Source of the DNA: Elusimicrobia bacterium GWC2_64_44
GTDB taxonomy: Bacteria; Elusimicrobiota; Elusimicrobia; Elusimicrobiales; UBA9959
Direction of reading: 5' to 3'
DNA: 64,000 nucleotides
Assembly: GCA_001799845.1 (NCBI GenBank)
Contig: MGUG01000032.1
Coordinates: 1 to 64,000, forward strand
The notes under the pieces were generated by a model that searched no databases, was not told where the DNA came from, and was given only the letters and a program-made list of their open reading frames with translations. This document shows positions 37,278-63,660 of this stretch, piece after piece (the first letter of the stretch is position 1; every line of letters begins with the position of its first letter). Made by a program: the position numbers and the translations under genes.

Positions 37278-38120
37278 ATGACCAAAGTAAGGCCTGTCCT
37301 GCCGCTCGCCGTTTTCGCGCTGCTCTGCCTGCCGGCCGCCGGCCCGCAGGCGCGGCAGCGCGGCGACGAGCGCAACGCTTTCCGGTCCTACTACACGCAG
37401 GAATACCTGGCCTTCAAGAAGCGCCTCGTCGAGGAACTGGGAAAGGTCCCGCCCGGAAAATTCAGCGAATTCTCCAAGCGCAGCAAGGCGGAGCCGGGCA
37501 GCGACCACAAGGTCATCGCGCTCACCTTCGACGCCTGCGGCGGCCGCCACAGCGGCTACAACAAAGCGCTGATAGAGTACCTGCGCCGCGAGAAGATCCC
37601 AGCCACCCTCTTTATCACCGGCCTCTGGATAGAGGAGAACAAGGAAACCTTCGCCGAGCTGGCCAAGGATCCCCTGTTCGAGATCGCCAACCACGGCCTG
37701 CTGCACCGGCTGTGCTCCACCGAGGGGCGCAGCAAGTACGGCGTGTATCCGACGCGCGACCTGGGCGACGTGATAGACGAGATGGAACTGAACTCGCGCA
37801 AGATCGCGGAGCTCACCGGCCGCCGCCCGTTGTTCTTCCGCTCGGCCACGGCTTTTACCGACGAGCTTTCGCTCAAGGTGGCGCAGCGCCTGGGCATGGA
37901 AGTGGTGGGCTACAGCGTGCTCTCCGGCGACGCGATGCGCGCTTCGGCGAAGACGATGAGCAGGAACATCCTCGCCGGGGCGCGGCACGGCGCCGTGGTG
38001 ATAATGCACTTCAACCACCCCGAGTGGCCCGTGCAGGAAGCGCTGGAAAAAGCGGTGCCCGAGCTGCGTAAGCGCGGCTTCGATTTTTCCCGCCTGGAAG
38101 ACTTCACCGTGAAGCCATAA
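37278..38120 (+). CDS. Exported polysaccharide deacetylase, NodB type (280 aa)
   Basis: A signal peptide (about 1-22) is followed by the NodB homology domain of carbohydrate esterase family 4. Motif 1 is ALTFDACGG (catalytic Asp then the metal-binding Asp replaced by Ala-Cys, a form seen in some members), motif 2 is NHGLLHR (HxxxH), motif 3 is FFRSATAFT in place of RxPY, and the last is VVIMHFNH. The substrate may be peptidoglycan or a surface glycan. The motif 1 and 3 changes leave activity uncertain. It starts 4 bp after the TldE-like gene and ends the operon before the gene-free region at 38121. Confidence 0.85.
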   Translation: MTKVRPVLPLAVFALLCLPAAGPQARQRGDERNAFRSYYTQEYLAFKKRLVEELGKVPPGKFSEFSKRSKAEPGSDHKVIALTFDACGGRHSGYNKALIEYLRREKIPATLFITGLWIEENKETFAELAKDPLFEIANHGLLHRLCSTEGRSKYGVYPTRDLGDVIDEMELNSRKIAELTGRRPLFFRSATAFTDELSLKVAQRLGMEVVGYSVLSGDAMRASAKTMSRNILAGARHGAVVIMHFNHPEWPVQEALEKAVPELRKRGFDFSRLEDFTVKP

Positions 38121-38143
38121 AAAAATATTTTCGCCTACCCCCC

Positions 38144-38172
38144 TTGACAAGTCAAGATTCGTCTGTTATATT
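38144..38172 (+). promoter_or_regulatory. Consensus sigma-70 promoter of the A-depleted transcript
   Basis: TTGACA (38144-38149), a 17-bp spacer and TATATT (38167-38172). This is among the closest sigma-70 matches in the window, yet no credible gene follows. Transcription would begin near 38179-38181. Confidence 0.82.
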
Positions 38173-38179
38173 CTAGTTG

Positions 38180-38571
38180 TAGTCTTGCTCTTTGATTCGC
38201 ACCGGCGGCGTGGTTGGCAGTTCGGTTCGGGGTTCGGCCCCGGTCCGGTGCTCGGTTCCCCCAGGTTCGCGGCCCGCTCCCGCGCGGCGTCTTGCGGCGC
38301 CCGCTTCGGTCTGACAGCGGTGGTCCGTGTTCCGGGGAGTGCTTCGGCCCGTCTCCCGCCTTTTTGGCGGCGCGCGGCCGGCTTCCTGGTTCGGTGGCCC
38401 GTCCCTTGCGGCGGTGTTCCGGCCCCCGGGTTGGCGCTCCGGCTCCCGCGGTCTACGCGGTTCTTGCCCGGTCGTCCTTGTGTGGTGTGCGGTCTGCGGT
38501 TGCGGTACAAACTAAAGTAACGGCTTCGGCCGATGATAGGGCCCCCTTTCGTAGGGGGCCCTCTCAATTTT
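38180..38571 (+). ncRNA. Candidate non-coding RNA with an adenine-depleted core
   Basis: Between the promoter at 38144-38172 and the terminator-like hairpin at 38538-38562 lies about 390 nt. Its core, 38221-38500, has 5 A and 69 T in 280 nt by direct count. Because stop codons need A on the plus strand and T on the minus strand, all six frames are open by default, so the 60-150 residue open frames here carry no coding evidence. None has a ribosome site or recognisable product. Short GC stems are visible, for example CGGGG-TTCGG-CCCCG near 38228, CCGCC-TTTTT-GGCGG near 38357 and CGGC-TTCG-GCCG at 38521-38532. It matches none of tmRNA, RNase P, SRP or 6S RNA as I know them. Confidence 0.5.
38538..38571 (+). 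terminator. Terminator-like hairpin ending the A-depleted transcript
   Basis: AGGGCCCCCT and AGGGGGCCCT form a perfect 10-bp stem with a TTCGT loop, followed by CTCAATTTTA. The U-run is weak. Positions 38545-38560 are also nearly complementary to 38596-38610 in the repeat downstream, so a competing fold exists. Confidence 0.6.
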
Positions 38572-38732
38572 ATGCCAGCTTAACGGAAGGCTATTGGCCC
38601 CTACGAAAGGTTCCTTATGGGGAGAGCTCGCTGCGGCTCGCAGGGGGCCCTCTCAATTTTATGCCAGCTTAACGGAAGGCTATTGGCCCCTACGAAAGGT
38701 TCCTTATATAAGAGGCTCGCTGCCGCTCGCAT
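38553..38732. repeat. Two tandem copies of a palindromic repeat, period 89 bp
   Basis: A 66-nt block is identical at 38553-38618 and 38642-38707. Similar but diverged spacers follow (38619-38641 and 38708-38732, both containing a GCTCGCTG-CGGCTCGC-like stretch). A third start of the unit, GGGGGCCCTC, is at 38733. Within each unit AGGGGGCC pairs with GGCCCCT and AGCTT with AAGGCT, giving a REP/MITE-like cruciform. The first unit starts inside the terminator-like hairpin. No open frame is plausible. Confidence 0.85.
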
Positions 38733-38752
38733 GGGGGCCCTCAGGGCGCTCC

Positions 38753-38807
38753 AATTACGGTGACACAATACTTAATTGCTGGAATTAAGTTCTGTGTCAC
38801 CGGAATT
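38753..38807. repeat. Dispersed palindromic element, copy 1
   Basis: Two 25-nt arms (38753-38777 and 38783-38807) with a 5-nt loop pair with three mismatches. The core arm is GGTGACACAATACTTAATT and the ends are AATT. The same element, with perfect arms, lies at 61913-61965. It looks like a REP/MITE-type repeat; no transposase is in the window. Confidence 0.88.
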
Positions 38808-38831
38808 CAATTTGTTATTATTAATACCTGT

Positions 38832-40541
38832 ATGGGGACTATTTTTGCGCTGCTGAAGGAGAATAAGGGCAAGGCCGCGGTATTCGCGGCGGGGCTTGCG
38901 CTGTTCTCGGCGGCGCTGCTGCCCAAAGCCGCGCTCGAAGACGCCTTCTCCCGCTATACCTTCTATTGCCTGCTGGCGCTGTACCTGGCCCTGGCCGGCG
39001 CGATCATAGCCTTCGCCGCGAAGCGCCGGGAGCAGCTGCCGGAGTTCTTCGCCCGCAACAAGCGGGGCTTCCTGTTCTCGCTCGCGCTGGCCGCCGTTAT
39101 CTTCGCCGCCGCCAAGCCCTCCTTCCGCATCCTCAGCGACGAAACAAACTTGCTGTCCGTGTCCCGCACCATGCTGTCCGAGCGCCGCGTGGACAATATC
39201 ACCATGGGCAAGTGGTATTACTTCAACCTGCAGCCCCTGGCCCGCGAGCGTGACAAGCGCCCCTACGCCTATCCCTTCGCCGTGTACGCAGCGCACGCGC
39301 TGACCGGCTACCGGCCCGCCAACGCCTTCGCCGTGAATTTCGTATTGCTGGTATTGCTCTTCTGCGGCGTCTTCGCCCTCTTCCGCGGCCTCTACGGCGA
39401 GGTCGCGGCCTATTGCGCGGTGCTGCTGGCGGCCGCGCAGCCGCTGCTCATTCTCAACGCCGCCTCGGGCGGCATGGACTTCATGTATGCCGCGCTCATC
39501 TTCTTTTCTTTCCTCGCCCTGCGCGAATACCTGCGCGACGGCGGCCCGGAGACTTTCGGCCTGCTGCTGGCGCTGCTGCTGCTGCTGGCCAACACGCGCT
39601 ACGAGGGGCCGGTGTTCCTCGCCGCTGCGGCCCTGGTGCTGCCGCTGGCGGGGCGGGTGAAGGCGGCCGCGCTGGCCACCTGGCAGTTCGCCGTGCTGCC
39701 GCTGGCCGTGCTGCCGGTGTTCATACAGCGGGTCTGCTTCAGCACCAATTTCGAGCAGGCCGCCGGCGTGGTACCGTTCAGCGCGGCCAACCTGCTCAAG
39801 AACTCCGTCTCTTTCGTGCTGTTACAGTTCAATAACGGCTCCCTCCTGTTCCCCTACGCCTCGCTGGTGAACCTGGCCGGCCTGGCCGCCGCCGGGGCGC
39901 TCTTCCTGCGGCTGGCCCGGCGCGGCGGCGGAGAGGGGCAGGACCGCCTGCTGGCCGGTGTCTCGGCCGCGGGGCTCGCGCTCTACTGGCTGGTGACCTG
40001 CCTCTACTACTTCGGCGACCCGGCCCACCAGGCTTCCGCCCGGCTCTTCCTGCCGGCGGCGCTCACGCTGTCGCTGCTGGCCGCCGGCCTGCTGGCAAGG
40101 GCGACGCGCGGCCGCCCCGTGCCCGCGCTGCTGGCCGCTTCCGCCCTGTTCCTGTTCTACGCGCCGATAGCGGCGGAGAACCGCTTTTATAACAGCCTGT
40201 TCCTGGGCCGCGAGTACCGCCACCAGGTCAGTTTCCTCGAAGAACTGGGCGATAAACATATCCTGCTGATAAGCGACCGCCCTGGCCAGTTCGTGGTGCT
40301 GGACCGCGGCGCCGTCAACTTCGACTACGCCCGCGCCAGCTACCCCTCGCTGGCCGACGAGCAGCGCCGGCATCTCTACAGCCGCGTCATAGTTTTCCAG
40401 GAGATACTGTTCGCCACCGGCAAGCCCACGCCCTCCACCGAACTCGGCCCCGAGTACAAGCTGCGGCCGCTGCTGGAGCGGCAGAATACGGGCGACAGTT
40501 TCCTGCGGTTCTCCGAAGTGATCTTCCCGCCGGCCCCCTGA
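38832..40541 (+). CDS. GT-C-type multipass membrane protein, possible glycosyltransferase (569 aa)
   Basis: About 11-12 membrane segments fill residues 15-460, followed by a soluble C-terminal domain (about 465-569, VSFLEELGDKHILLISDRPGQFVVL). ILSDETNLLSVSRTML (about 98-113), an acidic pair after the first segments, recalls the catalytic loop of ArnT/PMT/GT39-like GT-C enzymes. RPYAYPFAVYAAHALTGYRPANAFAVN is also typical of that group. I therefore infer a lipid-linked sugar transferase; substrate unknown. I chose the ATG at 38832, since the longer frame would run into the palindromic repeat. There is no clear ribosome site; TATTAT ends 10 nt upstream, so a very short leader is possible. Confidence 0.75.
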   Translation: MGTIFALLKENKGKAAVFAAGLALFSAALLPKAALEDAFSRYTFYCLLALYLALAGAIIAFAAKRREQLPEFFARNKRGFLFSLALAAVIFAAAKPSFRILSDETNLLSVSRTMLSERRVDNITMGKWYYFNLQPLARERDKRPYAYPFAVYAAHALTGYRPANAFAVNFVLLVLLFCGVFALFRGLYGEVAAYCAVLLAAAQPLLILNAASGGMDFMYAALIFFSFLALREYLRDGGPETFGLLLALLLLLANTRYEGPVFLAAAALVLPLAGRVKAAALATWQFAVLPLAVLPVFIQRVCFSTNFEQAAGVVPFSAANLLKNSVSFVLLQFNNGSLLFPYASLVNLAGLAAAGALFLRLARRGGGEGQDRLLAGVSAAGLALYWLVTCLYYFGDPAHQASARLFLPAALTLSLLAAGLLARATRGRPVPALLAASALFLFYAPIAAENRFYNSLFLGREYRHQVSFLEELGDKHILLISDRPGQFVVLDRGAVNFDYARASYPSLADEQRRHLYSRVIVFQEILFATGKPTPSTELGPEYKLRPLLERQNTGDSFLRFSEVIFPPAP

Positions 40542-61912: not shown

Positions 61913-61965
61913 AATTCCGGGGACACAATACTTAATTCGAAATTAAGTATTGTGTCCCCGGAATT
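61913..61965. repeat. Dispersed palindromic element, copy 2 (perfect 25-bp arms)
   Basis: Arms at 61913-61937 and 61941-61965 are perfectly complementary around CGA; the core arm is GGGGACACAATACTTAATT with AATT ends. It lies between the convergent recQ and amidase genes and can fold as a bidirectional terminator. It shares its design and most bases with 38753-38807. Confidence 0.92.
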
Positions 61966-62862: not shown

Positions 62863-63660
62863 ATGCGCAAAGCCCTGACGCTTTTAATCTCTTCGGGCCT
62901 GGCGGCGCTCCTGGCCGGAGGGGTGTGCGCGGCGCAGTTCCATGTGCCGCTGCATATGCCGCCGCACCCGGCCTTCCCGGGCGCGGAAAGCGGCAGGGGC
63001 TTCTGGCTGGAAGCCGGGAGCAGCCGGTTTAAGTCCGGCGGCATAGAGATCTCCGGGCCCGGCGGCTGCTTTGAACTGTCGGCGGTAGGAGAAAAAAAGC
63101 TGGGTGCCTCCGTGCGCGTCTGCGGTTTTTCCCTGTCCGGCAAGGTGGACCCTTTGCGCCTGGGCCGCAAGACCGGCGGCGGTTTCGCCAGTTCCACCGA
63201 GGCGTCCCTGCTGTGGGCGCCGCGGGGCCGGGACGGCTACCGGTTCTATGCAGGCGGGCTCCTGGGGCTGACCGTTCTCGATATACGCAGCCCGCTCAAC
63301 TATACGCTTAGCGACGGCAGGCTGGTGGTGGAACCTGACACCGCCTACTCCATTTTCTTCGGGCTGCCGGTCGGGGCCGAGCTGCCTTTCGGCATCTCCC
63401 GGGGCTGGAGCGGGGCCCTTCAGGCCGACGTGGCCGTCTTCGGCGGCGGGGTGACCTTCTTCACCTACCTCGGCCTGCCGGGTTCTCCGCTTTATGGCTC
63501 CAGTTCCGGCATAGATCCGCAGTTAGCCGCAGGGGCCAGGCTTTCTTTCTACTATCGCCCGTGGCGGCTGTTCATCGAAGGGGCCGGCCGGGCCTATACA
63601 GGGGATGGCGCGAACGAGGCCTCGTCTTTCACCTCGCTGCTGGCCGGGATAAAATTCTAG
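62863..63660 (+). CDS. Exported beta-barrel-like protein (265 aa)
   Basis: I do not recognise the family. A signal peptide (about 1-23, GVCA-AQ) precedes strands with outer-membrane character (YRFYAGGLLGLTVLD, LVVEPDTAYSIFFGLPVGAELPFG, RLSFYYRPWRLFIEGAGRAYTG) and a terminal Phe (SLLAGIKF). This fits a small outer-membrane barrel. I chose the ATG at 62863, where the signal peptide begins; longer frames reach back over the amidase gene. CATAAT/TAATAT lies 7-9 nt upstream with no ribosome site. Confidence 0.75.
   Translation: MRKALTLLISSGLAALLAGGVCAAQFHVPLHMPPHPAFPGAESGRGFWLEAGSSRFKSGGIEISGPGGCFELSAVGEKKLGASVRVCGFSLSGKVDPLRLGRKTGGGFASSTEASLLWAPRGRDGYRFYAGGLLGLTVLDIRSPLNYTLSDGRLVVEPDTAYSIFFGLPVGAELPFGISRGWSGALQADVAVFGGGVTFFTYLGLPGSPLYGSSSGIDPQLAAGARLSFYYRPWRLFIEGAGRAYTGDGANEASSFTSLLAGIKF

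Follow-up and report, generated by a model that had tools for sequence, protein, structure and literature searches.

The locus between 38144 and 38571

In the window (the whole 64-kb stretch of DNA that was analysed) a gene of the PmbA/TldD type precedes a polysaccharide deacetylase gene, behind which lie a promoter, a long stretch almost devoid of adenine and a terminator, together predicted to yield an RNA of ~390 nt (Table 1). The protein encoded by the downstream neighbour has no Pfam match. A recount reproduced the 5 A and 69 T given in an earlier note on this DNA for the 280 nt of 38221-38500 (A5 C101 G105 T69, a strand asymmetry in which G and C are balanced). This is the lowest A count of all 280-nt segments in the 64 kb, the next non-overlapping one having 15, and at the 18.2% A of the window its binomial probability is ~3e-18. 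The elements described in that note, i.e. a consensus sigma-70 promoter (TTGACA-17-TATATT, 38144-38172), a C(TTCG)G hairpin and a perfect 10-bp terminator-like stem, were all found in place. We also identified two elements that it had not mentioned: a palindrome, TTGACAAGTCAA, within which the -35 box lies, and a boxA-like sequence at the start of the predicted transcript.

Table 1. Features of the A-poor RNA locus and its upstream neighbour (window coordinates)
Feature	Position	Strand	Basis or remark
Polysaccharide deacetylase (Polysacc_deac_1), upstream neighbour	37278..38120	+	Pfam PF01522, E 7e-20
Inverted repeat TTGACAAGTCAA enclosing the -35 box TTGACA (38144-38149)	38144..38155	+	common to the second copy in the genome and family members
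-10 box TATATT, 17-nt spacer	38167..38172	+	sequence
Conserved 5' leader GTAGTCTTGCTCTTTGA	38179..38195	+	G at position 7 after the -10 box in 76/76 members
boxA-like element TGCTCTTTGA	38186..38195	+	matches rRNA boxA
Helix P1, GCACCGG (38199-38205) with CCGGTGC (38245-38251), inner hairpin 38228-38242	38199..38251	+	compensatory changes
A-avoiding structured core	38200..38500	+	composition and family comparison
Hairpin GGCGTC-TTGC-GGCGCC about conserved TCTTGCGGC	38286..38301	+	family comparison
P3-P4 domain, two adjoining branched hairpins, best conserved part	38340..38430	+	covariation; model R2 E 2e-6 (window sequence itself part of the model)
UUCG hairpin CGGCTTCGGCCG flanked by A-rich conserved strands	38521..38532	+	family comparison
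Intrinsic terminator, stem AGGGCCCCCT/AGGGGGCCCT (38538-38547/38553-38562), then TTTT	38535..38571	+	near-invariant in family

The palindrome has a wider distribution. Its form TTGACNNGTCAA was found at 15 sites in the same genome (L242-L256) versus one for a reversed control pattern, and is probably the operator of a regulator. It often overlaps the -35 box of genes whose proteins start like signal peptides. A second conserved transcribed element of normal A content, GGACGTCAGCCATAGGCGACCTCCAACTGAGAACTCCCCGAAG..GGGGAAGC, was observed directly behind the TTGACAAGTCAA promoter at ten loci (L084, L085, L090, L093, L095, L100, L109, L113, L116 and L123) and resembles a further structured RNA or leader not listed so far.

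Several repeats were noticed close to the locus. A tandem 70-bp repeat (38549-38707, 89-bp spacing, 99% identical) begins within the terminator loop and repeats the 3' arm of the terminator. The short dispersed element GCTCGCTGCCGCTCGCA is present at 38626-38650 and 38715-38739 and at L004 (1515-1830), with repeats as well on contig C3, where they stand between sequences resembling tRNAs and a gene like that of an elongation factor. A MITE/REP-like inverted repeat with 25-bp arms (GGTGACACA..TGTGTCACC) lies at 38753-38807 and 61913-61965 of the window and at several places in the genome.

Family members and their genomic positions

A DNA search of the same genome (3.09 Mb, 60 contigs) recovered the promoter on contig C14, where it is followed by a different, equally A-poor sequence with a terminator at its end, a copy that the earlier note had missed. 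The promoter pattern (at most 3 mismatches) had matches in 45 of 150 relatives and the reversed-pattern control in none. When the exact pattern of promoter plus leader was searched across 84,980 GTDB species, each represented by a single genome, 73 matches were obtained, all labelled Elusimicrobia/Elusimicrobiota or just 'bacterium' MAGs. Among 341 genomes of the phylum, promoter plus leader (at most 2 mismatches) and the covariance model R2 matched in one family only and there chiefly in the genus of the window; A-poor members were found in the genera g1, g2, g8, g11 and g12, and none was seen in g10 or g13. The 97 distinct promoter loci comprise 76 that are A-poor (A <=12%) and a separate A-normal set preceding A-normal genes, the A-poor RNA thus standing behind most of them.

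From -10 box to terminator the members measure 380 nt (median; range 236-592), their median full-length pairwise identity is 44% and a genome carries 2-5 copies. The paralogues form groups by position: one behind the deacetylase gene (after TldD/PmbA), as in the window, one behind a gene that belongs to no family in Pfam (C1) and one behind a RecQ-like gene (named by sequence). The deacetylase gene, or its antisense shadow ORF, adjoins many related loci upstream, and the 3' neighbours vary. One genome (G014) has two A-poor copies arranged in tandem ~830 bp apart (L203, on contig C9, with the promoters at 63310 and 64138). Since the same neighbour genes stand upstream, group by group, the paralogues are not random insertions, and a mobile element is disfavoured by these conserved chromosomal positions. 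A similarity search of plasmids gave no match, and viral contigs gave one promoter match, which was not A-poor.

Leader, fold and adenine avoidance

The leader of the family, GTAGTCcTGaTCTTT, is conserved at a fixed distance from the -10 box, and we infer a transcription start near 38179. The boxA core G[ACT]TCT[TC]T was found at a fixed offset (position 14-15) in 69 of the 79 A-poor loci and in none of the 18 other genes that this promoter precedes, for a background of 5.7e-4 per position. All seven 16S rRNA leaders fetched from the genus contain TTGCTCTCTAAAAAA or TCGCTCTCTAAAAAA at ~250-270 nt before the 16S, and in several of them an extra GATCTTT-type element follows the first promoter. 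The boxA-like motifs in these leaders include CCTGATCTTTTAA and TTTGCTCTCTAAAAAATT, and the CCTGATCTTTTAA of one of them shares a 13-nt identity with RNA leaders from further genomes of this genus. The published boxA consensus GYTCTTTAANA is gammaproteobacterial (PMC5725501), and our assignment is based on sequence similarity and position. By these resemblances, the A-poor RNA is likely to be transcribed by an rRNA-like antitermination complex.

With rRNA operon transcripts under boxA-NusB-NusE control the A-poor RNA would thus share a boxA-type core near the 5' end, a strong promoter, an intrinsic terminator and a long, untranslated, GC-rich body, in addition to the similar boxA-like motifs of the same-genus 16S leaders. 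It differs in being a short, single RNA that has no Rfam match and is not rRNA, and in avoiding A throughout its core; in the rRNA leaders of the genus A is visibly abundant. As to the organization of those rRNA leaders (e.g. L259 and L261), they have two promoters, and the leader is duplicated in some genomes, each with a boxA-like TCGCTCTCTAAAAAA/TTGCTCTCTAAAAAA.

When all classes were aligned together (A1, model R1), the consensus was poor, with 14 pairs, and a class-restricted alignment of 33 P3-P4 domain sequences (A2, model R2; structure from RNAalifold) was used instead. In A2, 93.3% of cells are paired versus 89.6% in shuffled alignments, and double changes amount to 9 pairs and 24 cells versus 4.5 and 6.0; none of 500 shuffles, a test that leaves relatedness in, reached the double-change cell count or the covariation score. 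Slid controls, which remove relatedness but favour a structure that comes from this very alignment, gave 40-52% paired. The consensus helices extended to 65 members of all classes with 90.0% paired versus 87.8% (maximum of 200 shuffles 88.6%). In helix P1, GCACCGG/CCGGUGC is replaced in relatives by GAGCCUG/CAGGCUC or GCUCCGG/CCGGAGC. The terminator stem GAGCCCCC..GGGGGCTCTC is near-invariant across the 65 members. The minimum free energy of the single RNA is not beyond that of shuffles of its composition (z = -0.47), and the case for structure therefore rests on covariation. Taken by comparison, the RNA class and its covarying structure are well supported.

Structured RNAs rely on A in loops, A-minor contacts, GNRA tetraloops, T-loops and kink-turns. 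In 65 cores of the family (18,158 nt) we counted 4.3% A, 23.0% T, 33.3% C and 39.4% G. Counted from the -10 box, A makes up ~27% of the first 10 nt, 20% at 20-30 nt, 2-9% in the core and 27-39% before the terminator; the variable transcribed positions 23-25 hold A in 31, 50 and 28 of 76 members. Predicted unpaired probabilities are 0.63 for U, 0.18 for G and 0.25 for C. The covarying stems include A opposite U (A-U in P3a, U-A in P1). Beyond the 64-kb window these statistics cover the fetched loci, in which 103 of the 129 low-A segments are family members; of the other 26, the 25 listed all come from loci chosen for long A-free runs. A genome scan for 80-nt A-free runs was swamped by the opposite strands of lysine-rich genes. 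In our reading the core is kept A-poor by selection, which tolerates A in the leader and in the tail at the 3' end.

Three other readings of the composition were weighed. A protein gene whose reading frame lacks A would account for the open frames, as no stop codon can form in them, yet close orthologues differ by indels of which 139 of 223 are single-nucleotide and only 13% multiples of three, their substitutions have no codon-phase bias and the stems carry compensatory changes. Because one-nucleotide indels dominate, this is not a protein gene, a reading to which we give hardly any credence; a conserved protein, named in the earlier note as an outcome that would speak against an RNA, was looked for through these indels and the codon phase and was not found. 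Loss of A from the coding strand by transcription- or editing-coupled mutation of an otherwise unconstrained sequence would fit the strand asymmetry with balanced G and C, as well as the excess of C<->T (352) over A<->G (78) substitutions between close pairs. It is nevertheless very improbable, since positions 23-25 are transcribed and A-rich, A returns before the terminator, C is not depleted and the stems admit A opposite U where the helix allows. The relic of a strand-biased mutated element that the note had suggested is disfavoured for the same A-rich leader positions and because the family is maintained. Evasion of nucleases, by which an A-less RNA would escape A-requiring RNases or interferases and be very stable, its biological role being a separate matter, agrees with a depletion that spans the whole core and spares leader and tail. 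The residual core As are, however, not depleted after pyrimidines (observed/expected 1.06 for CA and 1.17 for TA), so that the depletion is not driven by the labile YpA step, and we regard this explanation as rather improbable. Avoidance of YpA steps as the cause of the A loss was rejected on the same ratios, and it is A itself that is disfavoured.

Class identity and possible role

That the locus encodes a new noncoding RNA, one of the suggestions of the earlier note, gained support from the conserved promoter, leader, terminator, covarying fold and position behind the deacetylase gene and from the lack of a coding signal or Rfam match. Conservation of position and structure in relatives, which it had proposed to look for, was found in both respects. 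At gathering score the Rfam 15 covariance models matched in the window only a tRNA elsewhere, and a lax scan of 38100-38860 returned two chance miRNA matches, on another repeat. Like 6S RNA, the A-poor RNA is untranslated, structured and a few hundred nt long, but it shows no long rod with a central bubble and occurs in several copies per genome; the 6S model RF00013 had no match in the same genome (90% complete), with positive controls in other genomes. A type III toxin-antitoxin RNA was rejected, as the downstream neighbours are not conserved and no conserved toxin gene stands behind the RNA. In a literature search for A-poor noncoding RNAs or noncoding RNAs of Elusimicrobia nothing relevant was found. 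No large bacterial noncoding RNA class in which one nucleotide is nearly absent is known to us. The large classes found by comparative genomics (PMC2864571) are likewise intergenic, structured, covarying, clade-restricted and without assigned function, and the A-poor family differs from them in this near absence and in having no Rfam 15 match. Sequence comparison showed the family itself, the promoter and leader that its members share, their terminator and covarying fold, and that they are noncoding, avoid A and keep conserved positions; we rate the family a new class of structured bacterial noncoding RNA, the kind itself being known.

The earlier note had also considered a decoy or sponge. 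In a CsrB-like form of this idea, GGU/GCGGU motifs would titrate an RNA-binding regulator and A would be avoided so that the motif is not confused or paired away (the Csr system is described in PMC7652899). GGU occurs 18.6 times per RNA (11-30) versus 9.9 in shuffled sequences, about twice as often, and GCGGU is 3.8x over the order-1 expectation, in 64 of 65 RNAs. As in CsrB/CsrC (RsmY/RsmZ), there are 2-5 dispersed paralogues at separate loci, a few hundred nt long, with low sequence conservation, a repeated short GG-containing motif and an intrinsic terminator. CsrA, on the other hand, needs GGA, typically in multiple hairpin loops, which is nearly missing from cores so poor in A; the enriched motif is GGU/GCGGU. 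The Gs of GGU are mostly paired in the predicted folds (20.6% unpaired), so a simple sponge of accessible motifs is not demonstrated, and the large covarying P3-P4 domain exceeds a motif array. A decoy or sponge is no more than a possible role, and in its CsrB-like form we hold it to be unlikely, albeit the least so of the alternatives.

Our preferred reading, to which we lean with some reservation, is a discrete, untranslated, structured RNA of ~390 nt, confined to one family of Elusimicrobiota, probably made with the help of boxA/Nus and likely to bind protein in trans. That it is transcribed at all, binds Nus, is stable and works in trans, and that its synthesis is high and Rho-resistant, is what we infer here. 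Initiation would take place at the sigma-70 promoter, with its -35 box inside the TTGACAAGTCAA palindrome, and the boxA-type element at the extreme 5' end would probably put NusB-S10 (NusE) on the polymerase, as rRNA operons do, so that a long, GC-rich, ribosome-free RNA could be made without Rho termination until the strong intrinsic terminator closes the transcript. The RNA would fold as a conserved series of GC/GU hairpins, U mostly replacing A where unpaired. Most likely the RNA is long-lived and acts in trans by binding protein, be it as a scaffold or as a titrating RNA; it would present U/G-rich surfaces repeatedly and be free of A-dependent tertiary motifs and A-containing cleavage sites. 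More tentatively, with chances that we put slightly short of even, the family may combine a core of effectively three letters (G, C, U), in which U stands for A when unpaired, with use of the rRNA antitermination machinery, several copies per genome and a function in trans that requires the absence of A.

One promoter pattern suffices to recover the RNA family. A is kept out of ~280 nt at 44% identity and is normal in the ends of the transcript, a compositional constraint for which we know of no comparable rule in any other RNA class. The family offers a direct way to test what A contributes to RNA, and with it boxA/Nus control would reach a new noncoding RNA from a phylum that has been little studied.
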